This document shows, piece by piece, positions 1 through 17,785 of a stretch of 41,533 nucleotides of DNA. The notes below the pieces were generated by a model. That model saw only the letters and a list, made by a program, of their open reading frames with translations, made no database searches and was not told where the DNA came from. A program made the position numbers and the translations under genes. The DNA comes from a virus. The stretch is taken from the IMG/VR virus record IMGVR_UViG_3300008266_000279, positions 1-41,533 of that record; one strand, given 5' to 3'. Within the stretch, counting starts at the first letter, position 1. Each line of letters starts with the position of its first letter.

Positions 1-3000
1 GTATTTTGTGTATTTTCCGTTTCTTTTCCATAAACTGTAATGTTGAGCAGCACCACTTTGTCCTTGCTGCCATGCTAAATAAAAGAATAAATCAAAATCA
101 GTAGAATCCCCTGGTGTAATATCACCACCCCCACCAACAAATGTTCCTTGATTGTATGCTGCTGGAGCTGGAGGTTGAGGTTGTACTCCAACTCCTGCTG
201 ATATAATATTTTCTATAGCTATTTTAACTATTTTTGTTATATTAGAAGAATTGAAAGCTCCTTCTTCTGGTCTGTTTAGTATAACATTTAATGCTTCTAT
301 TTTTGTTGTCCAGTCTTCTTTAGAAACAACATGACTTAACCTTGTTACAGTATGAGCAATTTTAGTTCCTCCTGTTCCTGCTGTATTATATCCTTTGGGT
401 ATTAAATCTTTATCTGTTTCAAATAAAGACCCTATTAATAAACCACCAATACCATCCATTTCAAAACCAAATTTAACAGGTATAATATCTCTATTTTTTC
501 CTGGTGATGCAAGAAGAGCTTGAAAATATACTATTAAATCTCGTAGGGCATTTTTTGCTTTAGATACTAATTCACTTATATTAGCTGTATTAGGGCTATT
601 ATCTAGTGGTGCTTTTCCTAATGTACCAAACAATATAGTAACACCTGCTAAACTGTTTGCTAAAGCAGGATTATTTGGATCATTATATGCAACTGAATCT
701 CCTGTGTCTTCTTTTTCAGGGATAATTCTGTCTGTTAAAGTATCATTAAAATCATTTAAAGTACCACTTTGAACTCCTAATCTTCCACTTTTCTTTTGTG
801 AACCCATTACAATAAGAGAAGATTGATTTGGGAATATCTGTGATTCTAAAGAATACGAACGAATTATTGAATTTAAATTTTGTACTTCTAATTTAAATAA
901 GTCAGAAGGTTTGCTAGGTGATGTATATTTAACATCAATTACTCGAGCTATATTGTCTATTGGATCAACGTGTACTTCAAAACTATTTACATTACCTAAA
1001 GATGTTTGTATTTCAGACATTATACTTTTAACATAATTGTATAAACTAATTTCGTTTTTTTCTTTACTATCACTTGCTTCTAATCCTTGATTAAGTGATT
1101 GTCTATACAATAAATCTAAACTAACATATATATTTCCAATTACACCTAATTCCTTTTTAGGATTATCTTTATAAAAGAAAGATTTTTCTAAATTTTCTAA
1201 TATTTTTATAGAAGATACTGCATCTTCTGTACTGAGAACAAAGGTAGCAGCTGCTGTTGCTGCTGCACTACTTGCAGCAGCAGATATTGAATTTACAGTA
1301 ATATTATTTAGTATATATTCACCATTTAAAAGTTTTACTATATCATTATTAAAATTTAAAAAGAAAGGTTCAACAGGTCTGTTGTTTAAAAGAGCAGTAA
1401 GTGTTTTTTGTTCTGGTTGGTTATTTACTGTTACTGTTAAGTTAATTTCAATATTTACTCCTTTTGATTTAAGGTGTTGTTGTATATCATATAATCTATA
1501 TAAAGCATTAAGTTTACCGCTAGCAATTCTATTAACTCCATTTATTCTATCTATCTGTTTTATTCCGGGAGGATTTGTTATAAATTGCTCTGTTAATAGT
1601 CCAACTAAACCTTCCCCATTAGTATTTCCGGGAGCATATTTCCATTTATCTCCTTTCCCCAATGCTTGGCTAGTTGTTCCTTCTGCTAGATCTTTATTTA
1701 CTGCAAAATATTCTACTGATGTTGTTATAATGTTTTTTATAGCTGCTGTGAAAGAATCGCCATCTACTCCTGCACCTTCAGCAGCTTCTATTAAACTTTT
1801 TACTACTGTATTTGCGGTTGCTGCTAATTGAGTTGATGTTTGTGTTGTAGCGCCACCAATTTCTTTAACTATGTCTTTATACCACAGAGGGTTTTTAATT
1901 AAACAGGATGTTGGGTCAACTGATACTTGGATAGGGTGAGCAACACATAATAAATCTTCAGTAGATCCACCAACATATGTTGGTGTTTTAATTGAAAATT
2001 TAATTAAAGGATTGTCGTCTATTTCAGAACGAGCAATGATATATTCATTCATTATGTCTAAAGCAGCCTCTAAAGTAATATATGTTTTAATACCAGATCC
2101 AGGTTCTATAAATTGATTAAAATCTCCAAAACGAGTAAGTCCTTTAACATCTAATACACTATATTTATTTTCTAGGTATGTTTTTCCTTTATTTGTAAGA
2201 ACCTTCGCATTTGGATCTTTAAGTTTGAAGTTTAATTCTGCCCAAATCCCAGCTAATGTGTTTTTTTGATAATAATCAGCAAATTTTACAGAAGGATTAT
2301 TACCTTGTTTAACAAACAATTCATCCAAAAATCCACTTCCAATAGAACCTGTATCATACATTCCGTATTTAGATAAATCAGCTCGAACATAATTTACTTT
2401 AATAGATTCAACAATTTCTCCTACTGATACTAAAGTTGTTCTACAATCATATCCCCCATCAGGTCGAGCAGACCATTGATAATTTTTTATATAGCCATAA
2501 ACAGCATCATAATTACCTCCTGTTTTAAGACATCTACTATATATTTTTGAAGGAATAGTTGCTATATTAATATCATTTTTTGGTTTAAGTAATTCATCAC
2601 CTAAAAAGTCGGTAAATGTAGAAACATATGTTCCATTTTGATTTATATAAGGAACCCACCCCCATTCTATTAATGCTGTATAACCAGAGCGCATATATAA
2701 TAATTCTAAATCTTCTAGCTGGTGGATATCCCAACATTGAAACTCAACTGTTACTTCTCTTAAAGAACCATACATAGATTTAGATTGGACCTCTATAGAA
2801 GTTATACCAGGTATAGGGCGAATACCTAATCTATGACTAGTACCTCCAGGAGATTTAGTACTATATGCTTCTTTGCCTGTACCTATTCCTGATTTAAGTG
2901 TTTCATTGGGATTTAGTGTACCTCCTTGCAAAATATAGTTTTGAGCTAGATTTGATGAATCGTTAATATCTACAGCAGATGTCATTCTTATCCAAGAGTT

Positions 3001-3111
3001 GCGAGAATTAAGATATTGGAGGTTTTGAGGTGTGCGGTTAGTCATTGCCTCCTGGCGTTTTTCCAGTGAATTTTTAATTTCTTTAGGGAATGAACTATTA
3101 AATAATGACAT
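1..3111 (-). CDS. Baseplate hub paralogue 1 (partial, runs off the left edge)
   Basis: The frame is open from an ATG at 3111 to base 1 (1037 codons, no stop), so the C-terminus is missing. The first ~410 residues match the neighbouring 1388-aa hub protein almost block for block, including the FQCWDI-x-QLEDLE region, a GYTAL-x-EWGW block, the KNYQWSAR block and the CVAHP-x-QVSVDPT block. The similarity resumes after about residue 625 and continues to about residue 990. Between these blocks, at about 1250-1860, lies an unrelated ~200-residue insert with an AEGAGVDGDSFTAAI helix motif that recalls annexin-like GxGTDE repeats, followed by a Ser/Ala-rich linker. The last visible residues (YLAWQQGQSGA) begin a new C-terminal domain that may be lysozyme-like, but too little is present to say. 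I infer a baseplate hub (gp27-position) component that may carry cell-wall-active domains. It is the last gene of the unit starting at the promoter motif near 11080. Confidence 0.75.
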   Translation of the reverse strand, partial: MSLFNSSFPKEIKNSLEKRQEAMTNRTPQNLQYLNSRNSWIRMTSAVDINDSSNLAQNYILQGGTLNPNETLKSGIGTGKEAYSTKSPGGTSHRLGIRPIPGITSIEVQSKSMYGSLREVTVEFQCWDIHQLEDLELLYMRSGYTALIEWGWVPYINQNGTYVSTFTDFLGDELLKPKNDINIATIPSKIYSRCLKTGGNYDAVYGYIKNYQWSARPDGGYDCRTTLVSVGEIVESIKVNYVRADLSKYGMYDTGSIGSGFLDELFVKQGNNPSVKFADYYQKNTLAGIWAELNFKLKDPNAKVLTNKGKTYLENKYSVLDVKGLTRFGDFNQFIEPGSGIKTYITLEAALDIMNEYIIARSEIDDNPLIKFSIKTPTYVGGSTEDLLCVAHPIQVSVDPTSCLIKNPLWYKDIVKEIGGATTQTSTQLAATANTVVKSLIEAAEGAGVDGDSFTAAIKNIITTSVEYFAVNKDLAEGTTSQALGKGDKWKYAPGNTNGEGLVGLLTEQFITNPPGIKQIDRINGVNRIASGKLNALYRLYDIQQHLKSKGVNIEINLTVTVNNQPEQKTLTALLNNRPVEPFFLNFNNDIVKLLNGEYILNNITVNSISAAASSAAATAAATFVLSTEDAVSSIKILENLEKSFFYKDNPKKELGVIGNIYVSLDLLYRQSLNQGLEASDSKEKNEISLYNYVKSIMSEIQTSLGNVNSFEVHVDPIDNIARVIDVKYTSPSKPSDLFKLEVQNLNSIIRSYSLESQIFPNQSSLIVMGSQKKSGRLGVQSGTLNDFNDTLTDRIIPEKEDTGDSVAYNDPNNPALANSLAGVTILFGTLGKAPLDNSPNTANISELVSKAKNALRDLIVYFQALLASPGKNRDIIPVKFGFEMDGIGGLLIGSLFETDKDLIPKGYNTAGTGGTKIAHTVTRLSHVVSKEDWTTKIEALNVILNRPEEGAFNSSNITKIVKIAIENIISAGVGVQPQPPAPAAYNQGTFVGGGGDITPGDSTDFDLFFYLAWQQGQSGAAQHYSLWKRNGKYTKY

Positions 3112-3123
3112 AATTTTTATTTA

Positions 3124-3684
3124 TTAATCTATTCTATCTCTTATTTCATCAAATACATATCCTTCTGGGAAGTCAAATCCATCATCCCCATTATTAAAGG
3201 ATGTTGGTGGAATATATATATTATCTGTAAAATTTTTTATTCCGGGTATTTGGTTTTCTGCTTCTAATACTTCTCCTTCTATAAACCCTCCATAAAATTT
3301 TAATGATACTACAGTATATATAGGATTAGATTTAAGAGCTTTAAAAGCATTTTCATCTATTTCTACAATATTTTTGGTTATCTGATGATATGAAAAATAC
3401 CTAGTGTCTGTTTCATATTTGTATATATAAGGAACAACATTTATATTTTGAGGTAATCTTTTACCAGATATTGCTTCATATGTGTTTAATGATAAATTAT
3501 CACTAGATAAAGTTTTTATTAGTTTAGCAGCAGTAGCTGAAAATTCTTTTCCAGCATATGCTTCTCCTCCTAATTCATAATAATATCCAACATATTCTTT
3601 ATTTTCTAAAACATATTCTTTTCCATAAGTATATTTAAAATTTAAGACTCCCTTTGGAATGTTTATTTTTGGATAAATTGACAT
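3124..3684 (-). CDS. Hypothetical virion protein between the two hub paralogues
   Basis: 186 residues, starting MSIYPKINIP. I do not recognise a family. A tyrosine/glycine-rich block near residues 31-48 (YVGYYYELGG, then AYAGKEF) is of a type often seen in small structural proteins of uncultured phages. There is no signal peptide, membrane segment or cysteine motif, and the C-terminus is acidic (GDDGFDFPEGYVFDEIRDRID region). It sits 14 bases after the end of hub 2 and 12 bases before the start of hub 1, so it is almost certainly co-translated with them and may be a spacer, chaperone or spike-associated subunit of the hub. That role is inferred from position only. Confidence 0.7.
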   Translation of the reverse strand: MSIYPKINIPKGVLNFKYTYGKEYVLENKEYVGYYYELGGEAYAGKEFSATAAKLIKTLSSDNLSLNTYEAISGKRLPQNINVVPYIYKYETDTRYFSYHQITKNIVEIDENAFKALKSNPIYTVVSLKFYGGFIEGEVLEAENQIPGIKNFTDNIYIPPTSFNNGDDGFDFPEGYVFDEIRDRID

Positions 3685-3698
3685 AAAATTTTAAATTT

Positions 3699-6600
3699 TT
3701 ACATAAGTGAATTATATTTTTTAGCAAAATATTCAGGCATTGCAAAGTGATTAACATTTACACTTTCAGCGTTGCTTCCTAAAAGCTTACTTAAAGCGTT
3801 TTGACCATCTATAGTAGATTGATATTTATCTTTTGACCAGTTTGCTGTTCTATATATCATTCTAACTTTAGAAACATTATTTGATGCTATAGTAGCAGAA
3901 GCAGGTAATGCTGGGTCTATAAGTCCAATAAAACTGTATTGTGGTATAGACCCATAAGTTTTAATTCCTCCTTGGGAGAACCCAGACACTGATTTTATTT
4001 TACCTTGAGGTTGTTTATTTTGTATTTCTTTTAATAAACAATTAAGATCGTTTTCCCAATCACTGTATATAACATTTTTTCTATTTAAATAACTACCCAT
4101 AGCAGATTGCATGTAAGAAGCACCATATTTTGTACTTGGTGTTCCTCCATACACAACTGCCCACTCTGTTGAACTAGGATTACCTACAGATATAATTACA
4201 TTACTTTTACATGAAACTGCTTTTGATGGTTGTTGAGGGGGATTAGTACCTCCTCCTGTTCCTATAGGAGCAGCAAAAGAAGTAGGAATATCTAATGGTC
4301 CTAAATAATCATAGTGGTGAGATTCATTAGTAGTATTACAGTTTTTAAATCCAAATCTTTTTTGATTAGCTTGCATCCATGCCCAATATGTTGGGTTTGT
4401 TTTTGGATCTAATCCAGCTCCATTATTATCACATAAATCAAAAGCCATTCCCCAACCATGGTTTGATCCACCAGGAATAGCAGCAGGGCAACATATGCCA
4501 GGTTTTGTTTTGCATTTGCCGCTTCCAATTGCATTAGAACAATTTGATTTCCACATATATACTTGATCTTCGTATGTTCTAAAAGCATTTAATACTTTTA
4601 TTGTTAGTCCATCAGCAGTGGCTGCTTCTAATAATCTAATAAGATTATATAAAGGTGCTGCTTGAGCTCTTATTCTGTTGTTATCACGAGTATGGCTTAT
4701 ATTGTGTTTTTTATATAAGTCTGATCTTACAGTATTTAAATCGATCAGCAAATCTTCAATTTCTCCATTCTTGCGTGTTTGTCCATTAATTACCTTAGTT
4801 GTACCTCCCGTTGCTGATCCTGGGACATATCCCACATCACCTGTAAAACCTCCTGTTATTCCACCAATTATGTTTTGAAATCCTTGTATAATAGTTGTAA
4901 GAGGAAATGGAGGGTTACCTGCTCCTTGTCCTATAATAGCGTTAATAGCATCAGTAACTATTTTTTTAATATCTAATTTATTAAATGTTCCCTTTGGTCT
5001 ATCTTCTAATATGATATTTAAAGTTTCTAATCTAGTTTTCCAATCTTCACCAGAAATAGAATGTTGTATTCTTATTACTGTTTGAGCAAGTCTAGAGCCT
5101 ACTTTTCCTCCTTTATATCCTTCTGGTACCATATCTCTATCCATATCAATTAGGGATCCTATTACGATACCACCAATTCCATCCATTTCAAAAGAAAATT
5201 TAGTTGGGATTATATTTCTATTTTTTCCTGGTGATTCTATTCCTGGGAGATTTTGGAAAAATACTATTAGATCTCGTAAAGCATTTTTAGATTTAGACAA
5301 CAACTCATCAATATTTACAACACCTGGTGTTTGAGAAGCTGATTCTTTAGCTAGTACTCCAAACAATATTACTATACCTGCTAAACTAGCAGCTAATTTT
5401 GGTTCTTTTGTAGTATTTTTAGTATTAGAATTTCCTTTAGCTTCCTCTTTGTCAACTATTATTCTATCTGTTAAATTTTTATTAAAGTCAACCATAGTAT
5501 TATTCTGAATACCAAGCTGGCCTCCTTTACTTTGTGCCCCTATAGCTATAAGAGAAGTTTGGGATGGGAATATCTGGGATTGAAGTGAATATGAACGAAC
5601 TACTGAATTTGTGTTTTGTAATTTTAATTTAAATAAATTACTTGGGTTGTTTGGAACAGTATAATTAACATCAATTATTCTGGCTATATTATCAACAGGG
5701 TCAACATGTATTTCAAAATTAGTAAGACTACCTATAGCTGTTTGAATATTGTTAGCTATGTTTTTTAAATAGGTATATAAATTAATTTCATTTTTTTCTT
5801 GGCTATCGCTTGCTTCAGCTCCTGCGTTAAGGGATTGTCTATAAAGAAAGTCTAAACTAACATATATATTTCCTATGATACCTAATTCTTCATCTCCACT
5901 TTTATCTGTAAAGAAGTCTTTTTGTAAATCTTTTAATATATTAATAGTAGCTACAGCATCACCGGCATTAAGTTTGAATACTTCAGGAGTGACAAAAGTT
6001 CCACCTGCTGCTCCTCCTGATGATCCTCCTACAATGCTATCTATTTCGGCTCCTATAACTTTTACGCTTGGTGTTTTACTACTAGGATGAGATGATACTC
6101 GTCCAACTTCATTTGAAAGTACTGTTACTCCAGCATTAGTCCATTTTCTATAATATTCATCTATTCTAGGTAATATTTTATCTATTTTTTTATCATCATA
6201 TCCTTTTCCTCCATCATCAATACCCGCATATCCATAAAGTCCTTTAATAATATATATTTTAGAATTAGGGAACTTTGATTTTAAAAGAGTTACAAATTCA
6301 CTTATAGGGGTACTTTTAAATTCTATATAAGTATCATTAGTACCAATACTTATAAAAACATGAGTTACACTACTATCAACAGTAGCTTTTTCTATGTATT
6401 GTTTTAATGTTATTAATGTTATACCTTCTTTCCAATATATTTCTCTTGTATCTTTTGTGCTTTCTAATCTTTGAGAATTTTGTTGGAAAGATGGAGTTAA
6501 GCTATCTCCCATAATAATAGCTTTAGTTGTACCGGAAGGAGGAGGGGGTGGAGGGGTTGTTGTTGATGCTGGGGTGGGTGGGGATGGTGGATATTCTCCT

Positions 6601-7865
6601 AAAACAGGAGATATTTTTTCATACCATAAAGGGCTTTTAATCAGGCATGTAGTTGGATCAACTGATACTTGTGATGGGTGGGCAACACATAGTAAATCTT
6701 TAGCAGACTCACCTGTATATGTTTGTGTTTTAGTAGATAATTTTACTAATGGCTGTGCATTTTGGCCATCTTTATTAGATTTTGCTATAACATATTCATT
6801 CATTATGTCGAAAGCAGCTTCTAATGTTATGTATGCCTTGATTTTAGAATCAGGTTGAACAAATTGATTTAAATCACCATAATAAGCTAGTCCTGGGAGG
6901 GTTGGAGTAATAAATTTGTTTTCTAAAATTGATTTGCCTTTAGATGTAAGATTAACACTTCCACTATTTTGAGTTAGCTTTAAAGATAATTCTGCCCAAA
7001 CTCCTGCTAATGTGTTTTTTTGGTAATAATCAGCAAATTTTAAAGAAGAAATAGCCCCTTGATTTGTAAATAAATCATTTAAAAATCCATCTCCACTAAC
7101 AGATCCACTTTTGTACATATTATATTTAGCTAAATCTCCTCTTACATAATTAATTTTTAAGGATTCTACAAGTTCTCCTAGTGACATTATTACTGTTTTA
7201 CAGTCATAACCACCATCTTCACGAGCAGACCACTGATAATTTTTTATGTAACCATACATTGCATCATAGTTACCTCCAGTTTTAAGGCATCTATTGTATA
7301 ATTCTTGAAATATTTTTTCTTTATTATATCCTTTAGGATTTAACAACTCATCACTAAAAAAGTCAGTATATGTTGGATAATATTTTTTATCAGGACCAAT
7401 ATATGGAGCCCATCCCCACTCTACTAGGGCAGTATATCCTGTCCTCATGTAGAGTTGTTCTAAATCTTCTAATTGGCGGATATCCCAACATTGGAAATTA
7501 ACTGTTATTTCTCTCAGTGAACCATATGCTCCTAATGATTTTACATCTATCCCTGTAATACCAGGCATTGGGCGAATACCTAATCTGTGAGTTTGTCCTC
7601 CTGGGGAGGTAGTACTATACAATTCGTTACTGGTGCCTATTCCTGTTTTAAGGGTATTGTTTGAATTAAGAGTACCTCCTTGTAAAACATATTTTTTAGC
7701 TAGTTCTGCTGATCCATTAATATTAACAGCAGAAGTCATCCTTATCCAGGCATTACGAGAATTGAGATACTGAATATTTTGAGGGCTGCGATCTGTCATC
7801 GCATCCTGACGTGCTTCTAAAGAATCCCTAAGGTTTTTAGGAAGTGTATCTCTGAATATTGACAT
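3699..7865 (-). CDS. Multi-enzyme baseplate hub: hub domain with SGNH hydrolase, M15 peptidase and alpha/beta-hydrolase domains
   Basis: 1388 residues. Residues 1-420 and ~630-990 form the hub backbone shared with the gene at 1-3111. A proline-rich linker (~424-445) leads into an SGNH/GDSL hydrolase (447-612): GDS with Ser455, GTND at 508-511 and His593 in SSHP; the usual block-V Asp is replaced by Val590, so a Ser-His dyad is likely. Residues ~1033-1190 look like an M15 D,D-carboxypeptidase/endopeptidase: FRTYEDQ at 1095-1101, SNHGWGMAFD with His1136 and Asp1143, and ESHHYDY with Glu1181 and His1184. Residues ~1215-1388 look like an alpha/beta hydrolase: GFSQG with Ser1297, Asp1317 in IDPALP and His1373. 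These domains would suit cell-envelope penetration (peptide cross-links, ester groups, lipid or polymer esters). The enzymology is from motifs and the hub role from position, downstream of tape measure and LysM baseplate genes. The start has no rival; the gene begins 4 bases after its neighbour. Confidence 0.82.
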   Translation of the reverse strand: MSIFRDTLPKNLRDSLEARQDAMTDRSPQNIQYLNSRNAWIRMTSAVNINGSAELAKKYVLQGGTLNSNNTLKTGIGTSNELYSTTSPGGQTHRLGIRPMPGITGIDVKSLGAYGSLREITVNFQCWDIRQLEDLEQLYMRTGYTALVEWGWAPYIGPDKKYYPTYTDFFSDELLNPKGYNKEKIFQELYNRCLKTGGNYDAMYGYIKNYQWSAREDGGYDCKTVIMSLGELVESLKINYVRGDLAKYNMYKSGSVSGDGFLNDLFTNQGAISSLKFADYYQKNTLAGVWAELSLKLTQNSGSVNLTSKGKSILENKFITPTLPGLAYYGDLNQFVQPDSKIKAYITLEAAFDIMNEYVIAKSNKDGQNAQPLVKLSTKTQTYTGESAKDLLCVAHPSQVSVDPTTCLIKSPLWYEKISPVLGEYPPSPPTPASTTTPPPPPPSGTTKAIIMGDSLTPSFQQNSQRLESTKDTREIYWKEGITLITLKQYIEKATVDSSVTHVFISIGTNDTYIEFKSTPISEFVTLLKSKFPNSKIYIIKGLYGYAGIDDGGKGYDDKKIDKILPRIDEYYRKWTNAGVTVLSNEVGRVSSHPSSKTPSVKVIGAEIDSIVGGSSGGAAGGTFVTPEVFKLNAGDAVATINILKDLQKDFFTDKSGDEELGIIGNIYVSLDFLYRQSLNAGAEASDSQEKNEINLYTYLKNIANNIQTAIGSLTNFEIHVDPVDNIARIIDVNYTVPNNPSNLFKLKLQNTNSVVRSYSLQSQIFPSQTSLIAIGAQSKGGQLGIQNNTMVDFNKNLTDRIIVDKEEAKGNSNTKNTTKEPKLAASLAGIVILFGVLAKESASQTPGVVNIDELLSKSKNALRDLIVFFQNLPGIESPGKNRNIIPTKFSFEMDGIGGIVIGSLIDMDRDMVPEGYKGGKVGSRLAQTVIRIQHSISGEDWKTRLETLNIILEDRPKGTFNKLDIKKIVTDAINAIIGQGAGNPPFPLTTIIQGFQNIIGGITGGFTGDVGYVPGSATGGTTKVINGQTRKNGEIEDLLIDLNTVRSDLYKKHNISHTRDNNRIRAQAAPLYNLIRLLEAATADGLTIKVLNAFRTYEDQVYMWKSNCSNAIGSGKCKTKPGICCPAAIPGGSNHGWGMAFDLCDNNGAGLDPKTNPTYWAWMQANQKRFGFKNCNTTNESHHYDYLGPLDIPTSFAAPIGTGGGTNPPQQPSKAVSCKSNVIISVGNPSSTEWAVVYGGTPSTKYGASYMQSAMGSYLNRKNVIYSDWENDLNCLLKEIQNKQPQGKIKSVSGFSQGGIKTYGSIPQYSFIGLIDPALPASATIASNNVSKVRMIYRTANWSKDKYQSTIDGQNALSKLLGSNAESVNVNHFAMPEYFAKKYNSLM

Positions 7866-7869
7866 AACA

Positions 7870-8178
7870 TTATCTTGCTTGATTAAATTGGTTGTACAAT
7901 TGGTTTATATTACTTACATCAAGAGGTATTCTCAATTGAGTACCAGGTATAGGAAACATAGAACCTTTAGTTACATTATTATTAGCTACGGATATAATCC
8001 ACCATAAATTTATGTCATTATAATAAGCATAAGCGAGAGAATCAAGTCTATCTCCTATTGTTGTTATAACGTAAATATCACTAGTAGATAAAGGTATATT
8101 AGGGTATACTTTACTTTTTACATAAGGTTTACCTTGAGTGGTAAATAATACTTGGTTATTATCGTATCTATCTGCCAT
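7870..8178 (-). CDS. LysM-like baseplate protein (gp53-like)
   Basis: 102 residues. The central part reads as a LysM-type fold: ITTIGDRLDSLAYAYY, then a WWIISVANN block and a C-terminal GTQLRIP strand. Phage proteins of this shape (tail protein X, and the T4 gp53 wedge family) join hub and wedge in contractile baseplates. Here the domain probably serves assembly inside the baseplate rather than free peptidoglycan binding. The gene lies between the 834-aa baseplate protein and the multi-enzyme hub, which is the expected place. There is no signal peptide. I am fairly sure of the LysM-like fold and less sure of exact equivalence to gp53. Confidence 0.7.
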   Translation of the reverse strand: MADRYDNNQVLFTTQGKPYVKSKVYPNIPLSTSDIYVITTIGDRLDSLAYAYYNDINLWWIISVANNNVTKGSMFPIPGTQLRIPLDVSNINQLYNQFNQAR

Positions 8179-8193: not shown

Positions 8194-10698
8194 TTAACGT
8201 GGTCTATTACTAACAGGAAGTACTCCACCAAATAACAAAGCATTTGTTGCAAAGTTTTCGCGTGAAGTAATATTTCCGTATTTTTGAGAAACATTAATAG
8301 TTGAAGTTTGAGATACAGAAGATCCAGTACTTTGTTGTTGAGGTAATGATTTATTTTGGTTTGCTTGGTTTTGAGGATTTTCTTTAGGTTTGTCTCCTAC
8401 AAGAATACCTCCTCCAATATAATTAGGTTCACCTTTTTCTGCTCCATTATAATTTTGAGCTATGTAAGAAGTATGTTGGGTATCTTTAGCTCGACGTGGT
8501 ATTTTATTTTCCTTTTGAGTTTGAGCACCAATTGGGGTAAAGGATAGTGTTACCTCTACTATATGAGGCAATATCATTTCCTTTGACCCCCCAGCTGTAG
8601 GTTCATTTATTGCTATTTCCCAAGGAGAATCTTGTGGTATTTTATAATTTAATGAAGTAATTATACCTGGTTGAGAATCAACCCAATTCCCTACTGTTAA
8701 TCGACTTAATGGGCCTCTCATTAGTCCTTCATCAGTATAATCAGGCATCATATTAGATATTAAATGATTCAATTTTTGATACATTGGTTTCATTTCCTCG
8801 GCTGATAGAGCTGCTACTTTAAAACTAACACTTATTGTACGATTAAATCCATTGTATATATAAAATTTATCACCTCTACCAACATATTTTATATCACTCC
8901 ACTCTGATGTTATATCATCTGATAAATCTGTTAGATATGCTCTGAATACCATATGAACAGATTTTGTTGGGTCTCCACCATCAATTGCTTCAATCTTAAA
9001 TTTACATAAATCGTTTACATTATATGTTGTACCTCCTATATCTATTTTAGTGTAATTTTTACCTATATCTGAACTAAATAAAGGAGTTAAATTAATTGAA
9101 TCTTGTCTTCCACTTCCTACTCTTTGTTCACGTGATACTTTTTGCCAGTCTGGATATTTAAGAGTAACAACATTACCATATGAATTTCTATACTCTATTT
9201 CTCCTATATTTGTAGAAGAATAATTTCCATTGTTTACTCCATCAGAATTAATATCTGAATTGAATATTCCATATAATGTGTTGGCAGAACCAGTAGTTAT
9301 AGCACTTGTCTGTTGGATTCTATTTGCTATATCAGCATATGTTCTTATAGGTCCTAAGGGACTTTGACCGATAGCAGCTCCTATGTTTCTTATATCTGTT
9401 TCAATACCAGGATAATCAGAAATAGGAGAATTAAGTCCAGTAAATCCTGTTGTTCCTAAATCATTTGCTATAATACTTCCAGATGTAGTAGGATCGTAAT
9501 AAGTTACAGATTCTATTTTTTCTCCTAAAGTACCTTTACCTGCAGTTGCCGATTTTTCTATAGCCTCTTTATATGCATCTCCTCTGGCAGTGTTTGTTGC
9601 ACGGAATATAATAGTTTCTCCTATTCCATAAAGAGAATCAGGTCCTCCTGGATATCTATCAATTATTACGTTTGCTGTGGTGCCTAAAGTGGGAGAAGAA
9701 GCATTTGATATTGTTCTATTACTAATAGATGCTCCTCCTCTTTTATTAAGAAAACCAGATACTATCTGTGATGGAGATTTAAAATTAAAAGTACTACTTA
9801 AAATACCTGTTACTTGACCGAGACCACTTCTATTAAAATTTCTTTCTAAATTTTTAATTTTACTAAAAACATTTTCTTTAGATGCAGCAGCTTGCTTTTC
9901 AAATTTATTTTTTTCTTTTTTCCCAGCTTGTTCTTCATTTATTTGAGCTGTTTTTGTAACTATTTTTCCTAAATTAAATTTTTGTTTTAGGCCTAATAAT
10001 CTATTGTATTCTGATGCTCTTTTTGTAGGATCAGAAGCTTCTTCTAATCCCGCATTCCAACGAACAGCTCGTTCATATGAATATCTATCACTATCATTTA
10101 GGCTTGGGAGACGACCATGTCTATCATAATTTCCTTCTCCAAAAGCATTACTTCCAACTTGAGCTAAAGTATTAACAGGACTATAAAATCGTGTTGGTTC
10201 AAAAATCTGTCTATTTGCTTGAATAGAAGTAGGAGGGAAAGAAAATTGAGATGAAGCTAATAAAATAGAAACAGGAGGAACATCTCTTTTTATTTCTAAT
10301 CTAGGATTAGAAAACTGTAAATCTTTTTGTTTTTGAATAAATAATAAACCTCTAGGGAGACTAGCCATAAAGCTACCAATACGAAGAACATCTGTAGCTG
10401 ATGATCTAGCAGCCACAGTAAATCCTCCCCTAATGTAGTTATCAGTAGATAAAGCATCATTAACAGCAGCTCCTAATGCTCCCCTAACACTACCATCTAT
10501 AAAAGCAGAAGAACGATTTACTGTTGATGGAAGATTAAGAGTGCCTAAAAGAGAAGTTACAGTATTTCTATTAGTAACAGATTGTTGAAGAGTGTTTATA
10601 TTTGTAGAAATAAACGGCTGACCACTACTTCCCCCACCAGGTCTATCCGACCCATATACTAGGGATTTTAGATTAGTTTGTAAATCAATTAAAGGCAT
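8194..10698 (-). CDS. Large baseplate structural protein (possibly tube-cap/baseplate, gp48/gp54-like)
   Basis: 834 residues. The N-terminal half is low in recognisable motifs, with a lysine/glutamate-rich, probably helical stretch near residues 245-290. The recognisable part is at about 570-710, where a globular domain has VHMVFRAYLTDLSDD, RGDKFYIYNGFNRTISVSF, then an EEM...YQKLNHLISNMMPDY helix and a TVGNW...PGIITSLNY segment followed by SPWEIAI. This type of domain occurs in tube-proximal baseplate proteins of uncultured T4-like phages. The C-terminal ~100 residues are Gln/Ser/Asn-rich and probably disordered. Its position after the tape measure and before the LysM and hub genes supports a baseplate or tube-cap role; the equivalence to gp48 or gp54 is only a suggestion. 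Confidence 0.6.
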   Translation of the reverse strand: MPLIDLQTNLKSLVYGSDRPGGGSSGQPFISTNINTLQQSVTNRNTVTSLLGTLNLPSTVNRSSAFIDGSVRGALGAAVNDALSTDNYIRGGFTVAARSSATDVLRIGSFMASLPRGLLFIQKQKDLQFSNPRLEIKRDVPPVSILLASSQFSFPPTSIQANRQIFEPTRFYSPVNTLAQVGSNAFGEGNYDRHGRLPSLNDSDRYSYERAVRWNAGLEEASDPTKRASEYNRLLGLKQKFNLGKIVTKTAQINEEQAGKKEKNKFEKQAAASKENVFSKIKNLERNFNRSGLGQVTGILSSTFNFKSPSQIVSGFLNKRGGASISNRTISNASSPTLGTTANVIIDRYPGGPDSLYGIGETIIFRATNTARGDAYKEAIEKSATAGKGTLGEKIESVTYYDPTTSGSIIANDLGTTGFTGLNSPISDYPGIETDIRNIGAAIGQSPLGPIRTYADIANRIQQTSAITTGSANTLYGIFNSDINSDGVNNGNYSSTNIGEIEYRNSYGNVVTLKYPDWQKVSREQRVGSGRQDSINLTPLFSSDIGKNYTKIDIGGTTYNVNDLCKFKIEAIDGGDPTKSVHMVFRAYLTDLSDDITSEWSDIKYVGRGDKFYIYNGFNRTISVSFKVAALSAEEMKPMYQKLNHLISNMMPDYTDEGLMRGPLSRLTVGNWVDSQPGIITSLNYKIPQDSPWEIAINEPTAGGSKEMILPHIVEVTLSFTPIGAQTQKENKIPRRAKDTQHTSYIAQNYNGAEKGEPNYIGGGILVGDKPKENPQNQANQNKSLPQQQSTGSSVSQTSTINVSQKYGNITSRENFATNALLFGGVLPVSNRPR

Positions 10699-10710
10699 TT
10701 ACTTAACTTA

Positions 10711-11055
10711 TTAATAGCGTCCGTCAGAAGGACCTAAATCTTTATAAGTTCTACCTGATTTTGATTTATATACTTGTGATACAACTCCTGTATTAGGTGT
10801 TAAATTAGGAGCTCTGTTATCTAATTCATCTAATTGAGATTCAGCACGAATAGTAGATATTCCGTTTTTATTAAAATCTTTTAACCTAATTTGTGGATTA
10901 GAATCAACAGAATATGTATTTTGTAATTTACTAACAGCCGGATCTAAATTAGCTGTAGGATCAGCATATCCCCAAGCAGCATTACCTGGTTGAGGATTAA
11001 ATCCATTACTTATTAAACCTAATTTAGAATTGTTTGCTTGATCAATGATAGCCAT
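10711..11055 (-). CDS. Hypothetical tail/baseplate protein, 114 aa
   Basis: This 114-residue protein is rich in Asn, Pro, Ser and Gly (NGFNPQPGNAAWGYADP near the N-terminus, SKSGRTYKDLGPSDGRY at the C-terminus) and looks extended or poorly ordered. I recognise no domain. It is the first gene of a unit that begins at the promoter-like motif at 11080-11089, 24 bases upstream, and continues through the baseplate and hub genes. A small linker or assembly factor of the baseplate is a reasonable guess from position alone. Confidence 0.65.
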   Translation of the reverse strand: MAIIDQANNSKLGLISNGFNPQPGNAAWGYADPTANLDPAVSKLQNTYSVDSNPQIRLKDFNKNGISTIRAESQLDELDNRAPNLTPNTGVVSQVYKSKSGRTYKDLGPSDGRY

Positions 11056-11079
11056 GGTTATTGCATTTTATTGGTTTGA

Positions 11080-11089
11080 TATAAATATT
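11080..11089 (-). promoter_or_regulatory. Promoter-like motif, baseplate/hub unit
   Basis: The minus strand reads AATATTTATA, 24 bases before the ATG of the 114-aa gene. No further copy was seen in the gaps from here to base 1, so it may drive the whole baseplate and hub set. Confidence 0.6.
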
Positions 11090-11095
11090 AGAAAA

Positions 11096-13171
11096 TTAAG
11101 CTAATCGGTATGTATTTTTAACCTGTTCTGTACCAGTTTCAGTACGTCTTCCAACCATAGTACCAACGCGTTCACCATCAAGGTAAATATTACCACCACC
11201 TCCTCCACTGTTTGTTGATGGTTTCTGGGTGGCTACTGTATTAGCTAGACTAGCAATTGCTCTTACTAGGCCAGTGTTTGAGTCTTTTTTACCTCCTAAA
11301 TTAGTACCAGCTACTACAGTATCTTTATCATTAAGAGCAACAGCTCCTTCTGGTGAAAATATCATTCGTTTACCATAACCAGGGGATATAACGTCGTCTC
11401 CTTTTGATAATAATCCTGAAAATGCAGCAAAGGCTGCTATAGCTGCTGCTACTCCTAATACAGCTCCTACTACAGGGACTTTACCTGCTTGTTTACCAAG
11501 TTCTATAGAAGCATCTGCTGCATTAGCTTTAGCCTTCTTTTTTGTTAATGCAAATTCAGCTACTTTTAACGTCATTAAGTATACTTGTCTTCCTATATAA
11601 AAAGATATGAGTCCATTTAATACTTCTGAATATTGTGTTATGCTAGCTATAAGATCTAAAGCTTTTCCAAGTGGTCCTGCTACTAAATTACCTATAATTT
11701 CTTGTAATTTCATCATAGCATTATTAAATTGTTCTTGAGCAGACTGTTGCTTACTTTGCATTTCCAGATATTGATCTACAGACATGTTTCTCTTTTCCAT
11801 ATCTTTAATCTGCTCGGCATTCAATTCAGCTGCCTTATCTCCATATTTGTTAATGGCTTCTTGTTTCATTAGCATTTCAGCCATTTGGTCGGCATTCATT
11901 CCAAAGGCTTTAGCTAATGATTCTTGAGCTATTACGTTCATATCTTGAAACTCAGCAAGTGAACCTGCTTGAGAAGCTACTTCTTGCATTAATGTAGCTT
12001 GATCACCTGTTAAAGCTGCTGCTCTTGCTCTTTCAAAATTAAGTTTTTTACCAGTAATTAATTCAGCTTCAAGTTCATTTTCAATTGAAGATTCCCAATC
12101 TAGCATTGATTTACCAATACTATCTACCTGTTCTAGGTTTAGACCTAATTTTTTAGCTTGTACTACTGCTTCAGATAATGCTTTAGGATTATTTTGGAAT
12201 TTAACAAGTATACCAGAACTTAACTTAGAAATACTTGACAACAATTCTTTATCGCTAATATGAATTTTATTAGCTTGCATTGCTGAGAATGCTCCCTTGC
12301 GTAAATCAGCAACATAGTCTTTAGTATCTTTTCCTGTTGCTGCTGAAAATTGGGCTAGTTTACCTGCTTCTTCATTTGATAAACCTACTATTTCTGTTAA
12401 ACGAGCAAACTGTTCTGCTTCTTCTCCACTAAATTTAACAGCAATACCTAATTGCTCAGTCAATCCTTGTTGCGCCTTAAGTAAACGATCTGTATTGACA
12501 AATGCATTTTTAGATGCTCTAGAATATTCGACAAATTCTTGTCTTACATCCATAGCAGCTCCTTTGCTTAATCCTAAAGATTTAGCTAAGTCTGTTGCTT
12601 GTTGATCTGCTTTAAAAGCACTGTCTATTAATAATGTAAATAAACCAGTTAAGGTAAACATTTCCTTAACTTGGTTTCGTGTAATGCCTATATTTTTTTC
12701 TAAGGATTTAGCAATATTTTCAAGTAAATCAGATTCTTTTTTTCTTTGTTCAGATATCTTTTTTTCCTCTGCTACATGTTGTTCTAAAAGCTCTAATTGC
12801 CCACGAATTAAGTTTTCAATTTTTAATTGGGTATCTATTTTTCTATTAGCATCAAGTAAAGCATCTATATCTTCTTTTTTTCTAGCTTTTGCTAATTTAG
12901 CTAAATTTTTACTTCTTTGGAATTCTAACTCTTCAATTTTTTGACCAGACTTAAGGATTTCACTGTTTAGTTGTTTATTAATATCTTTTCCCTGACCTAA
13001 AGCAGTATTAAGTTTTCTAGCATTTTCAGCAGAATCTTTAAGATTTTTTACTTCATCTCCTAAAATTTTAGATAATGATTCTAATATTCTTTCCCCCTTT
13101 AACGCCTCTTCGTTAAATCTTTTTTGTGCTTCTGCCAGTCGTTCTGCTTGTTCTGGTGTTAAATCGGCCAT
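11096..13171 (-). CDS. Tail tape measure protein
   Basis: 691 residues. The first ~170 residues are a charged, heptad-rich coiled coil; the middle is alanine-rich helix with many short Ala/Gln/Glu blocks (for example EEAEQFARLTEIVGLSNEEAGKLAQFSAATG, in parts). A strongly hydrophobic segment lies at about 566-589 (VPVVGAVLGVAAAIAAFAAF). The C-terminus has a glycine-rich linker and GNIYLDGERVGTMVGRR, an ending typical of tape measures. At about 1.5 angstrom per residue the length implies a tail near 100 nm, similar to T4 (gp29 about 590 aa). It follows the tail assembly chaperone, separated by a terminator and a promoter-like motif, as expected for a tape measure with its own transcription start. 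Confidence 0.88.
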   Translation of the reverse strand: MADLTPEQAERLAEAQKRFNEEALKGERILESLSKILGDEVKNLKDSAENARKLNTALGQGKDINKQLNSEILKSGQKIEELEFQRSKNLAKLAKARKKEDIDALLDANRKIDTQLKIENLIRGQLELLEQHVAEEKKISEQRKKESDLLENIAKSLEKNIGITRNQVKEMFTLTGLFTLLIDSAFKADQQATDLAKSLGLSKGAAMDVRQEFVEYSRASKNAFVNTDRLLKAQQGLTEQLGIAVKFSGEEAEQFARLTEIVGLSNEEAGKLAQFSAATGKDTKDYVADLRKGAFSAMQANKIHISDKELLSSISKLSSGILVKFQNNPKALSEAVVQAKKLGLNLEQVDSIGKSMLDWESSIENELEAELITGKKLNFERARAAALTGDQATLMQEVASQAGSLAEFQDMNVIAQESLAKAFGMNADQMAEMLMKQEAINKYGDKAAELNAEQIKDMEKRNMSVDQYLEMQSKQQSAQEQFNNAMMKLQEIIGNLVAGPLGKALDLIASITQYSEVLNGLISFYIGRQVYLMTLKVAEFALTKKKAKANAADASIELGKQAGKVPVVGAVLGVAAAIAAFAAFSGLLSKGDDVISPGYGKRMIFSPEGAVALNDKDTVVAGTNLGGKKDSNTGLVRAIASLANTVATQKPSTNSGGGGGNIYLDGERVGTMVGRRTETGTEQVKNTYRLA

Positions 13172-13189
13172 TATTATAATATTACATCG

Positions 13190-13199
13190 TATAAATATT
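13190..13199 (-). promoter_or_regulatory. Promoter-like motif, tape measure gene
   Basis: The minus strand reads AATATTTATA, 18 bases before the tape measure ATG and 1 base after the chaperone terminator. Confidence 0.6.
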
Positions 13200-13200
13200 G

Positions 13201-13225
13201 AAAGCGCCTATTTTTTAGGCGCTTT
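13201..13225 (-). terminator. Intrinsic terminator after the tail chaperone
   Basis: A perfect 10-base stem (AAAGCGCCTA/TAGGCGCTTT) with a T5 (plus) or A5 (minus) loop, followed on the minus strand by CAATATTTATA. It overlaps the stop codon of the chaperone extension. The U-tract is short, so termination strength is uncertain. One base separates it from the promoter-like motif of the tape measure gene. Confidence 0.7.
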
Positions 13226-13489
13226 TGCAATATAATCAGGTGAGGACGTTTTTGATGAGGCTATATTTGGTTTAATTATGTCTTTTTTACCTGCATTTTT
13301 TAGTATTTGATTTTGGTTGTCGATTTCTTCATTTTGTTTATCATAGTGTTCTCTCATTAGATTAAACGTAACTCGACGTAACCATACAGGCATATTATAA
13401 ACTGTATCCCAATCATATCCTCCTTGCCCGTGAAATACTATTTCATGAATTTGTTTGAATATGTGAGATCTATGCTCCAGCGTCAGGCC
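13208..13489 (-). CDS. Tail assembly chaperone, frameshifted C-terminal extension (GT-like)
   Basis: The frame is open from 13516 to the stop at 13208, but its first ATG is at 13393. The residues encoded upstream of that ATG look like real protein (LEHRSHIFKQIHEIVFHG, then GYDWDTVYNMPVWLRR), and there is no ATG, GTG or TTG among them. I therefore read this as the downstream half of a frameshift product that begins in the 252-aa gene at 14228. The natural crossing point is a run of seven T (13490-13496) in the overlap: after TTT TTT in the first frame, skipping one T continues in this frame with GGC (a +1 shift; -2 is equivalent). The tail of the protein is Lys/Asn/Gln-rich. Position directly before the tape measure matches lambda G/GT. 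Alternative: an independent 61-aa protein from 13393. Confidence 0.68.
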   Translation of the reverse strand, partial: GLTLEHRSHIFKQIHEIVFHGQGGYDWDTVYNMPVWLRRVTFNLMREHYDKQNEEIDNQNQILKNAGKKDIIKPNIASSKTSSPDYIAKAPKK

Positions 13490-14228
13490 AAAAAAAGTTA
13501 AGAGAAATCGGAACAGTTATGCCCTCCCCTGCATAATTTCCGTCTTCAGGAATAAATTTCATTTCGATATCTGGTTGAATTTTAGCATAATATTCACGTA
13601 AAGCTCTAGCATCTGGTGCTAACAACATAGTATCTATAAAATCACGAACATTTTTCTGATCGTAGTCACCATTGATAGAAGTGATCATATGTTTTAAACG
13701 GGTAGTAATCTCAAAGGACCCATTTGGATTTACTTTAGTTAAACCTTTAATTTCAGCTTCAATTTTCTTTTCATCACTATGAGACAATAATTTAAAAGTA
13801 ACTATATTGCCTGTTTTAGGTAAAGTAAATGTAAAACTATTCACTCCTTCTTTAACTAAAGAAGTATCTAATTCTTTTTCTTTTAATGTAGTTAAATCAA
13901 TAGTTGCTTCAACTTCTTGATTCTTATCATTAGTATATTTAAATGAATATTCAGCACCATATCCTAAAATGCGAGCAGCAATCAAAATTGCATTTTTGTC
14001 GCCAACCAATAATTCATCATAATTGATTGGAGTTACAATTAGGGATTGTAATAATTTATCAATTACTACTCCTTGACGAATGAAATTGACGTTAGTGAGG
14101 ATATCTTCTTCTCTAGCCGTCATATACTTCATTTCAATTTCACCTTTGGAAAGTGGTGATTCTTTTGGGTACAATAATCCTTTCGAAGGTAACGAAACGA
14201 TTTCTGTTGGGATTTTTAATTCTGCCAT
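13470..14228 (-). CDS. Tail assembly chaperone / T4 baseplate-family protein (G-like)
   Basis: 252 residues. The N-terminus (PTEIVSLPSKGLLYP), then EMKYMTAREEDILTN, INYDELLVGDKNAI and AARILGYG are the signature blocks of the T4 baseplate protein family (gp26-like, the Pfam family named T4_baseplate), whose members in many phages sit just before the tape measure and act in tail assembly. The C-terminus ends SLNFFWPDAGA. The last codons overlap a second frame that continues as the 13208-13489 extension. In siphophages and several myophages this place holds a chaperone made in short and frameshifted long forms that bind the tape measure. The first 13 bases overlap the membrane-protein gene upstream. 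Family assignment is by remembered motifs, so fairly but not fully certain. Confidence 0.75.
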   Translation of the reverse strand: MAELKIPTEIVSLPSKGLLYPKESPLSKGEIEMKYMTAREEDILTNVNFIRQGVVIDKLLQSLIVTPINYDELLVGDKNAILIAARILGYGAEYSFKYTNDKNQEVEATIDLTTLKEKELDTSLVKEGVNSFTFTLPKTGNIVTFKLLSHSDEKKIEAEIKGLTKVNPNGSFEITTRLKHMITSINGDYDQKNVRDFIDTMLLAPDARALREYYAKIQPDIEMKFIPEDGNYAGEGITVPISLNFFWPDAGA

Positions 14229-14578: not shown

Positions 14579-14581
14579 AGA

Positions 14582-15124: not shown

Positions 15125-15143
15125 AGATTTTATTTTATGCGTA

Positions 15144-15153
15144 TATAAATATA
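15144..15153 (-). promoter_or_regulatory. Promoter-like motif, lipoprotein/chaperone unit
   Basis: The minus strand reads TATATTTATA, 19 bases before the lipoprotein ATG at 15124 and 11 bases after the tube terminator. Confidence 0.6.
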
Positions 15154-15164
15154 TGCAAAATAAA

Positions 15165-15186
15165 GGCGTCTGCAAAAGCAGACGCC
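15165..15186 (-). terminator. Intrinsic terminator after the tail tube gene
   Basis: A perfect 9-base GC-rich stem (GGCGTCTGC/GCAGACGCC) with a 4-base loop, followed on the minus strand by TTTATTTTG. It lies 25 bases after the tube stop codon and 11 bases before the promoter-like motif of the lipoprotein gene. Confidence 0.85.
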
Positions 15187-15211
15187 AAAAGTTGAGAAAT
15201 ATGAAGGGGAA

Positions 15212-15697
15212 TTAGAAGTTCAATATACAATAATCCATAGCAACTGTTACTGATAGGCTAATAGCAGCATCAGCACTCCAATCGTAATCACCAAAGGTTG
15301 CTGTTTTAACATAAGCACCCATAATAATCCACTCACCAACAACATCACCAACTGGGCCTAGGATTTGTAATGTTAATCTTTTCTTATAGAAGTCAGAATA
15401 ACCATCACGGCCGGTTACTGATTCGTGAGCCAAACGAGCCCATTCCATTACTGATTGGGCACCACTTGGTGTTACCGGATCGTATAATTCTAAGGTCATG
15501 TCGTTCCAACGAACTTTACCTTTAAGTTTACGATAAACGTTGATATGATCTAATATAATTTCACCAGCTTCGAATCCAGGAGCAGATGCTTTTTTAATCA
15601 AATAGCTAGGGACACCATCAATGTACATGATAAATCGATTCTGAACTTTTGGTTCAAATTCGGTAAACATGATTTCATTAGGACTTAATGTAGGCAT
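15212..15697 (-). CDS. Tail tube protein (T4 gp19-like)
   Basis: 161 residues, the usual length of gp19-family tube proteins. It has the expected pattern of an N-terminal segment on fitting the tube (FEPKVQNRFIMYIDGVPSYL), KKASAPGFEAGEI, a RKLKGKVRWNDMTLELYDP strand pair, an acidic/aromatic helix (MEWARLAHE) and a closing strand set with IMGAYVKTATFGDYDW and LSVTVAMDY. It polymerises as hexameric rings to form the inner tube inside the sheath. It lies just downstream of the sheath gene, as in T4 (18-19), with its own promoter-like motif 23 bases upstream, and is followed by the strongest terminator in the tail region. Confidence 0.9.
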   Translation of the reverse strand: MPTLSPNEIMFTEFEPKVQNRFIMYIDGVPSYLIKKASAPGFEAGEIILDHINVYRKLKGKVRWNDMTLELYDPVTPSGAQSVMEWARLAHESVTGRDGYSDFYKKRLTLQILGPVGDVVGEWIIMGAYVKTATFGDYDWSADAAISLSVTVAMDYCILNF

Positions 15698-15720
15698 TTT
15701 ATAATTGTTTAATTGCTGTT

Positions 15721-15730: not shown

Positions 15731-15745
15731 AGGGGCTACAATCCC

Positions 15746-17785
15746 TTATACAGGGAATGTAGCACCGGTTGGAGTTAAGTTAAAGTTCAAGATGATAAAT
15801 TCAGCAGTCTTAGTTGGTTGGATATAAATTTGACCTACTAGCTGATTTCTATCGATTACATCAGGAGTATTATTGGTATCATCCATTACTACTTTATAAG
15901 CAAATAAACCTTGACGTTGAACTACAGTATCGAGGTATGGATTAACTTGGTTTAAGAAACGGTTACGAGTAACTGCGGTATTTTGTTCGAATACTAAGTT
16001 GCGAGCAACACCACCAATGAAGTCTTTCAATGCAATCAACAAACGACGAACGTTTACACGATCGAGAGATGTTGGTTTGCGTTGTAATGTTTTCTGACCC
16101 CATACACATACCCCAGTACCTGGGAATGTAGCTAATGGATTAACATTTCCTGTGTATAATGTATCGCGATCTGTTTGAGATAAACGGAGTTGAGCTCTTA
16201 CTACTGAAGGAATACCACCACGATTTAGACCTGCTGGGGCAAACCATTCAGCACTAGATTGGTCGTTAAATGCTAATACACCACCTATTACTGTTGATGG
16301 AGGACACCATATGGTTTTACCTAAGTTATTACTAAATAATTGAACCCAAGGGAAATAGGTAGCAGCATAGTTACTAGATTGACCAGCAGCTTTTTGTACA
16401 GCTCCCGCTACAGTAGCATTGGTGTAAATACCATTATCTACAATTGCAATAGCATCACCTCTACCTTCACAAGTAGAAATCATATTATCAGCAGCTGTTG
16501 TATCTAAACCAATACCTGGGGCTAATAATACATTAAAACGATATTCGTCTTTATTTGACAATAATGTGAAAGCACGGTTATAATCGTCTGGGTGGAAACC
16601 TTGGATATTATTTATAGTGATAGTTTCATTCATTAATTTAGTAGCGGTAGTATCAGCTACACCACCTGTAAATCCACCATGTGCAGAGCCGCTACCTACA
16701 AACGGTAATGTAGTAGCATAAGAACCGGTTTTGAAATTACCATTGTTATCAATTGAATCTACGTTTGGAGTAGTTACTGAGGAGACACGAACATACAATG
16801 ATTGGTTTGGATAAGTACCTTGGAAATCAATCTGTCCTGTGTTTACATTATATACTGGTTTTAAATCACCAATAACACGAGAAATATAGTTTGGTAATTG
16901 TGGGTCTAAACTTACGTTAGCCCATGTTTCTAAGATATTCTTTTGAGAATTATTATCATCACCACGACGAACTACAATGGTAAATGTACCACCGTTACTA
17001 CCAGTATTTATATTAGTTACTTCCCAACGTATGTTTTGAGATGAACCACTTGGTAAAGCACCATTAACTACAGAACCAGAAACAACAGCAGCTGGTGTAG
17101 CAGCATCATTCATTTGATTACCCCAAGCTAATGTTTCGAGTTGGAAAGATTGAATATCAGCACCTCCAGTAAAGAGTGTAGTTGTACTACCAGAAGTGAT
17201 ATAGTAAATGTTACCAGTTGTTCCTTTAGGAATAGCGGTAAATACTACATTTGGGTTAGTAAATGAAGAAGCACTAACAACACTACTAGAAATAGCACTA
17301 TAAGCTGCAGATCCAGTAAGGCGATTATAAACTTCTTGTGGAGTAGATCCAGATAAACTTAATGTATATAATCCATTAATAGAAGCAGAATGTTGAGCTG
17401 TAGCAGCATTAGTTAAATTTAAACTAACTGTAGCAGCAGTACCGTTTGTTAAAGTGTCAATAGCAGCTACATTAGATGTAGCATAAGTATCAATACCATT
17501 AGAACCACTAATAATTCTAGTTACTAATAATGATTGACCACCATTTTGAAAGTACTCACGAGCAGTCTGTGATGTAAAGTATTCGTAATAGTAGCTACCA
17601 CTTTTAAAAATATCACCAAAAAGTGATAAATACTGTGTGTAAGTAGTAACGTACGTTGGTACGAATGGGCGACCAGCAACTGTAGGTCCTACAATAGCTG
17701 CGCCAAGTGCTGCGGGTGCTTGGGTGTATATACTTTGATCAGATTCAATCTGAAATACACCAGGGGAAAGAATTACTTCTGCCAT
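15746..17785 (-). CDS. Contractile tail sheath protein (T4 gp18-like)
   Basis: 679 residues. The N-terminus (AEVILSPGVFQIESDQS) is the typical sheath start in which the PGV segment precedes an extended arm. The C-terminal ~150 residues are the conserved sheath core: RVNVRRLLIALKDFIGGVARN, EQNTAVTRNRFLNQVNPYL, then QGLFAYKVVMDDTNNTPDVID and IQPTKTAEFIILNF, which form the interlocking strands between subunits. The middle (~100-450) holds Ser/Thr/Ala-rich surface domains. This gene makes the tail contractile, so the phage is a myovirus. A promoter-like motif lies 42 bases upstream and the tube gene follows. Confidence 0.93.
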   Translation of the reverse strand: MAEVILSPGVFQIESDQSIYTQAPAALGAAIVGPTVAGRPFVPTYVTTYTQYLSLFGDIFKSGSYYYEYFTSQTAREYFQNGGQSLLVTRIISGSNGIDTYATSNVAAIDTLTNGTAATVSLNLTNAATAQHSASINGLYTLSLSGSTPQEVYNRLTGSAAYSAISSSVVSASSFTNPNVVFTAIPKGTTGNIYYITSGSTTTLFTGGADIQSFQLETLAWGNQMNDAATPAAVVSGSVVNGALPSGSSQNIRWEVTNINTGSNGGTFTIVVRRGDDNNSQKNILETWANVSLDPQLPNYISRVIGDLKPVYNVNTGQIDFQGTYPNQSLYVRVSSVTTPNVDSIDNNGNFKTGSYATTLPFVGSGSAHGGFTGGVADTTATKLMNETITINNIQGFHPDDYNRAFTLLSNKDEYRFNVLLAPGIGLDTTAADNMISTCEGRGDAIAIVDNGIYTNATVAGAVQKAAGQSSNYAATYFPWVQLFSNNLGKTIWCPPSTVIGGVLAFNDQSSAEWFAPAGLNRGGIPSVVRAQLRLSQTDRDTLYTGNVNPLATFPGTGVCVWGQKTLQRKPTSLDRVNVRRLLIALKDFIGGVARNLVFEQNTAVTRNRFLNQVNPYLDTVVQRQGLFAYKVVMDDTNNTPDVIDRNQLVGQIYIQPTKTAEFIILNFNLTPTGATFPV

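Follow-up and report, generated by a model that had tools for sequence, protein, structure and literature searches.

Most virion-associated lysins of bacteriophages carry a single lytic domain, and only five with two such domains are on record, all from phages of Gram-positive hosts (PMC5380687). Gp44 of Staphylococcus phage phi11 combines an endopeptidase domain with an SGNH hydrolase domain (PMC5380687). The present report concerns hub1, the predicted tail hub of an uncultured phage represented by IMG/VR virus record IMGVR_UViG_3300008266_000279; "the window" refers to the whole stretch that was analysed, 41,533 bases in length. An earlier note, made from these letters alone, had placed three different hydrolase domains on the hub1 chain, and its remark that known tail hubs or spikes usually have one lytic domain agrees with a published review (PMC5380687). 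A described hub of this kind was not found in the literature searched, the coverage of which excluded most subscription journals.

Three hydrolase domains on one chain

Hub1 is encoded on the minus strand at 3699-7865, in one uninterrupted frame of 1388 amino acids (aa) that begins with ATG. Its parts, in hub1 residue numbering, are as follows.

3699..7865, minus strand: hub1, 1388-aa predicted tail hub with three hydrolase domains (open reading frame (ORF); homology to the "carboxypeptidase" of Flavobacterium phage vB_FspM_immuto and to IMG/VR relatives)
6624..7865, minus strand: hub core part 1, residues 1-414 (conserved in relatives, with many invariant columns)
5934..6623, minus strand: internal slot, residues 415-644, made up of a Pro-rich linker (426-443), the SGNH domain and a Gly-rich linker (613-622)
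6027..6530, minus strand: SGNH hydrolase domain, residues 446-613, with S455, G481, N510 and H593 (family alignment, model, Foldseek)
4986..5933, minus strand: hub core part 2, residues 645-960 (shared by relatives, with columns averaging 52% identity)
3702..4985, minus strand: C-terminal slot, residues 961-1388 (163-342 aa in relatives, that of hub1 being the longest)
4296..4769, minus strand: M15 (VanY-type) zinc peptidase domain, residues 1033-1190, with H1136, D1143, E1181 and H1184 (Pfam VanY, Foldseek)
3702..4223, minus strand: alpha/beta hydrolase (ABH) domain, residues 1215-1388, with S1297, D1317 and H1373 (unnamed phage family, model, Foldseek)

The claim that three hydrolase folds with intact key residues, SGNH, VanY/M15 and ABH, lie on one chain is confirmed by sequence comparison and predicted models, the M15 domain through its VanY match (E 8.5e-15) and the other two through family conservation and predicted folds. 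All of the residues named beforehand (S455, GTND, H593, H1136, D1143, H1184, S1297, D1317 and H1373) are present at their positions. The note had proposed structure prediction and profile searches as checks. The first, by AlphaFold2 and Foldseek, supports all three folds, the models resembling solved structures of SGNH esterases, of VanY/LdcB peptidases and of lidless serine hydrolases. The second gave a divided answer, in that M15 scored above its cut-off, SGNH produced a sub-threshold Pfam match and ABH had no match in Pfam or PHROGs.

Assignment of the M15 domain to its family is certain from the sequence. Pfam VanY matches residues 1074-1180 with 55.1 bits, against a curated cut-off of 25. 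The zinc motif, comprised of SNHGWGMAFD (H1136, D1143) and ESHH (E1181, H1184), is intact and fits the patterns SxHxxGxAxD and ExxH; the catalytic Glu expected of the M15 set is E1181, within ESHH. The nearest solved sequences are Ply500 (a weak match, E 0.0018) and VanY-like carboxypeptidases, and Foldseek searches with the model, which covered M15 together with ABH, led to LdcB and VanYB. A peptidase role is predicted because of this family membership.

Sequence searches of Pfam, PHROGs and the PDB barely detect the SGNH domain, which belongs to an unnamed phage family. S455 lies in a GDSL motif, GTND occupies residues 508-511 and H593 is present; the Pfam match to Lipase_GDSL_2 (E 0.0013, 19.8 bits) is under the cut-off of 32.9, and direct sequence searches with the domain alone found nothing. 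The family was gathered by the DNA pattern ISIGTND and then by a search with a three-sequence alignment, which gave 22 loci. Among 17 aligned members GDS, the block-II Gly (G481) and GTN (N510) show no variation, and the His column hardly any; H593 was assigned to it by spacing from a conserved Gly, MAFFT placing this residue two columns off the family His. The AlphaFold2 model (pLDDT 76, pTM 0.76) matched sialate O-acetylesterases, putative acylhydrolases and PAF-acetylhydrolases in the PDB (Foldseek probability 1.00, TM about 0.5), the best structural matches being carbohydrate O-acetylesterases. Membership in the SGNH superfamily is claimed because of this fold and the remaining blocks (Ser, Gly, Asn and His). 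In a relative found at L183 (2-1069, minus strand), L207, L229 and L230 (loci from the sequence scans are given as L numbers), GDR replaces GDS, and to judge from this sequence that relative is probably inactive.

The ABH domain presents S1297 in GFSQGG, D1317 in LIDP and H1373 in NHF, in the order expected of alpha/beta hydrolases (GxSxG elbow, acid, His). These C-terminal 174 residues have no sequence match in Pfam, PHROGs or the PDB. The family profile has no credible PDB match and could not be placed convincingly in Pfam or PHROGs, and queries with three members of the family had no match among 50,697 annotated phage records. The family was opened by the DNA pattern FIGLIDP (18 aligned members), and a second scan gave 75 loci (53 distinct members). 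All 18 have a nucleophile elbow, most often GFSxGG, as well as LIDP and a late His; S1297, D1317 and H1373 are invariant in them, at identities down to 21%, and the same Ser, Asp and His are near-universal in the 53. Conservation of the LIDP Asp is partly selected, since most members were retrieved with a pattern that contained it, while Ser and His are independent of the pattern in the first set. Most of the predicted domain has a pLDDT above 90, and Foldseek matched it to the lidless alpha/beta serine hydrolases 2fuk and 3trd, and also to 2i3d (probability 1.00 for several structures, 2fuk and 3trd included). When genomes were scanned for ABH, one relative was recovered, in a Bacteroidetes metagenome-assembled genome; the ABH alignment A2 proved too divergent to serve as a query for the collection scan. 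The ABH proteins of L102, L104, L108, L243, L257 and L259 begin with a short motif such as "ILLTESQ" or "LLITEED", which is possibly a packaging or targeting signal.

A conserved core with two exchangeable slots

Relatives of the hub1 core were recovered by two scans of viral contigs, the second of which confirmed 211 candidate stretches, and about 80 distinct proteins were compared. Their common core corresponds to hub1 residues 1-414 and 645-960, and it is interrupted and followed by two variable slots. The internal slot is 11-280 aa long in relatives and bimodal (a short linker of about 10-50 aa, or a domain of 146-280 aa). The longer inserts of 146-280 aa have no convincing Pfam enzyme match and no profile similarity to the SGNH family, and the notion that these usual inserts are hidden SGNH domains was rejected on both counts. 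In the C-terminal slot, a Pfam search of 71 terminal sequences identified VanY (9), M23 (5), Amidase_2 (4), CHAP (3), Glucosaminidase (3), Phage_lysozyme (2) and Phage_lysozyme2 (1), together with minor families; many further terminal slots resemble cell-wall enzymes by eye only. The earlier note, which gave no strand, had missed both this cassette-swapping family and the tandem repeats of the hub described below.

Within the family, hub1 is the longest protein, has Pro- and Gly-rich linkers at its domain junctions, and is the only member that holds an enzyme in the internal slot plus two consecutive enzymes in the terminal one. Neither an SGNH nor an ABH domain was found in the about 80 core relatives. 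An alignment combining the hub core with SGNH fragments was dropped because the SGNH rows were misaligned. Some hubs are encoded by a pair of ORFs, the break lying within or close to the internal slot (L029, L040, L066 and L228) or inside the first core part (L054).

Other contigs carry the same cargo in different company. ABH lies alongside M23 and M15 in L131, alongside VanY (M15) on a 2226-aa open frame in L137/L145, and next to a weak M15 match in L108; it is joined to peptidoglycan (PG)-binding and M23 domains in L298 and to a PG-binding domain in L257. In L228, SGNH directly follows the first half of a distant hub, and the second half is the next gene; because hub halves flank the SGNH domain there, the same slot was used. 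Two further cases rest on inspection by eye, an ABH behind an M15-like segment in L183 and an SGNH behind a lysozyme-like segment in L227.

Tail-gene neighbourhood and hub identity

The genes that surround hub1 in the window include the following.

15746..17785, minus strand: contractile tail sheath (Pfam PF04984 and PF17482, E about 2e-11)
15212..15697, minus strand: tail tube (PHROG_4542, E 5e-20)
13470..14228, minus strand: 252-aa baseplate-hub-associated protein (PHROG_150 "baseplate hub", E 4e-11)
11096..13171, minus strand: 691-aa protein in the tape-measure position (immuto gene order, where a tape measure protein is annotated)
7870..8178, minus strand: 102-aa LysM/tail-X-like baseplate protein (PHROG baseplate wedge, E 2.9e-12; baseplate hub, E 3e-5)
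3124..3684, minus strand: 186-aa protein downstream of hub1 (homologues after the hub gene in nearly all relatives)
1..3111, minus strand: hub2, a second hub paralogue whose insert is not SGNH and whose C-terminal cassette differs from that of hub1, its gene cut by the window end

In transcription order, the sheath, the tube, the PHROG "baseplate hub" protein, a 691-aa, an 834-aa and the LysM/tail-X-like protein lie upstream of hub1. The gene accordingly occupies the position of a contractile-tail baseplate hub, with sheath, tube, tape-measure-position and LysM-like genes nearby; the 691-aa protein itself has no family match. Homologues of the 186-aa protein were searched for in 84 sources, and in nearly all relatives they stand behind the hub gene. 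Hub1 is called a tail hub because of this gene order and position, together with its family, and sequence similarity to gp27 and other known hubs is undetectable, for which reason the label is that of a predicted hub and not of a gp27 member. From its sequence, hub1 is also predicted to be a virion-associated lysin with three domains.

The host of the phage is probably a member of the Bacteroidota, and a Gram-negative host is likely because the phage is related to Flavobacterium phages. Elsewhere in the window, an adjacent pair of proteins (40028-41176) has related N-terminal motifs (EAKRLQELAGILDKNQ, EAKRMQYLAGIINESQ), and many ITGSLFGTASWA-type repeats are common to large proteins of 570, 1867 and 1195 aa (20765-32234), which are probably tail fibres.

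Tandem hub paralogues

Hub2 shares 65% and 57% identity with hub1 over the two parts of the core. The first 114 bp of the locus L004 are exactly those that end the window on that strand, an overlap from end to end; its positions 1-5290 encode the remainder of the hub2 cassette and then a third hub. The terminal cassette of this third hub appears to be the single DUF5675 match of the family scan, an assignment made by eye. The overlap suggests that L004 continues the window, in which case three tandem hubs would follow one another with different terminal cassettes, a paralogue of the 186-aa protein standing behind each. Neither the hub2 nor the hub3 cassette had a match in PDB searches. In a quick tree, hub1, hub2 and the L004 hub form one group, the inner order of which is weakly supported.

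Nearly all other loci with enough sequence have a single hub. L027 has a tandem pair (9992-16594) that is 85% identical over the first 820 residues, with terminal domains that differ (M15 and another); on sequence grounds this pair is a recent duplication with cassette divergence. It is conceivable, if rather doubtful, that three tandem hubs with their own enzyme sets assemble into a mixed (heterotrimeric) hub, which would bring at least five different envelope-cutting or envelope-modifying domains to each tip and break its three-fold symmetry.

A proposed mechanism and its alternatives

Domains, key residues, slots and domain swapping were computed; hub function, activity, substrates and order of action we infer. 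The reading that is probably correct places hub1 at the centre of a contractile tail, where it would act both as the hub and as an entry tool with several enzymes. The two-part core would build the hub, tolerating foreign domains at an internal loop and at the C-terminus, and sheath contraction would drive it into the envelope. There the M15 peptidase would cut peptidoglycan stem peptides and so open the sacculus, while the SGNH and ABH serine hydrolases would remove ester-linked groups that obstruct the peptidase or passage. The most likely ester targets are acyl decorations on peptidoglycan or attached glycans, a choice favored because peptidoglycan modules accompany ABH and because of the carbohydrate-esterase matches.

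Several findings weigh against this account. Asp, expected three residues before the SGNH His, is replaced (V590, followed by S591-S592); it is not invariant across the phage SGNH family either, and some SGNH enzymes function without an Asp near the His. The M15 section of the predicted model has moderate confidence only. Comparison of the core with T4 gp27 and gp5 gave no match (hhalign probability below 1%), and a PDB search with the hub family profile gave no hit up to an E of 1, so that the hub identity assumed in the earlier note is upheld by gene order and family but not by profile comparison. Finally, none of the relatives examined has the identical three-domain combination.

The main rival, a less likely one that still deserves attention, is that SGNH and ABH deacylate lipid of the outer or inner membrane at the tip and thereby aid penetration, in the manner of a tail protein that bears a lipase. 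Lidless alpha/beta hydrolases and PAF-acetylhydrolase-like SGNH folds do include lipid esterases, phi11 Gp44 is annotated as an endopeptidase plus a lipase or esterase, and virion lipases have been predicted in Cellulophaga phages (PMC5380687). The company that ABH keeps, recurring by M15, M23 and PG-binding domains, points instead to the sacculus, and the top structural matches of SGNH are enzymes that act on carbohydrate O-acetyl esters.

Less probable is a division of labor in which M15 alone cuts, while SGNH and ABH are binding modules that grip acylated glycans or lipids. The SGNH domain without its Asp would suit such a role, and degenerate members of its family do exist, as the loss of the nucleophile Ser in the L183/L207 member indicates. 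Binding modules are unlikely to retain every catalytic residue, however, and hub1 keeps Ser, Gly, Asn and His in SGNH and a Ser, Asp and His in ABH that are near-universal in its 53 members.

Slightly more improbable again is that hub1 is some other tail-tip or fibre protein encoded beside the hub genes. Its core does lack a sequence match to known hubs, and the immuto homologue is labelled simply "carboxypeptidase". The pattern is nonetheless that of a contractile-tail hub: a LysM-like gene and then hub1, a core kept throughout the relatives, and lytic domains that vary at the terminus. Moreover, from the tape-measure position to the window end there is no hub candidate besides the hub1 paralogue. 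That the fusion is an assembly artefact uniting a hub with unrelated enzymes is very improbable, for even if the identical arrangement was found in no other contig, the frame is a single one of 1388 codons with linkers at its junctions, M15 occupies the slot used in relatives, and weak M15-ABH and hub-SGNH pairings occur in other contigs.

Comparison with known systems

Hubs with a lytic domain were already known; what is new in hub1 is the presence of three such domains, the likely Gram-negative host and a family whose members exchange such domains. With a two-slot core and exchanged cell-wall hydrolases, it becomes possible to ask how features of the envelope select for particular enzymes. 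Two phage enzyme families that travel with peptidoglycan hydrolases, and that neither Pfam nor PHROGs recognizes with confidence, have been exposed as well, and both SGNH and ABH are now open to esterase testing on peptidoglycan or attached glycans.

Like hub1, the gp5/gp27 hub of T4 belongs to a contractile tail and brings a domain that cuts the cell wall into the envelope. In T4 this is a single lysozyme, located on gp5, whereas hub1 has three hydrolases of other classes on a core without sequence similarity to gp27 or gp5. Gp44 of phi11 likewise joins a peptidase and an SGNH-type hydrolase in one protein of the tail tip, but it serves a phage of a Gram-positive host and has two domains, in contrast to the three of hub1 on the contractile tail of a likely Bacteroidota phage. 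The M15 domain shares its zinc-ligand motif and fold with VanY/LdcB and Ply500-type M15 peptidases; unlike them, it is part of a tail protein, where a hub core precedes it and another hydrolase follows. The immuto "carboxypeptidase" (immuto35A_237) has a homologous core, the same gene order and a C-terminal VanY domain; in this 938-aa protein VanY is the sole recognized domain, SGNH and ABH not being found, while hub1 has all three.

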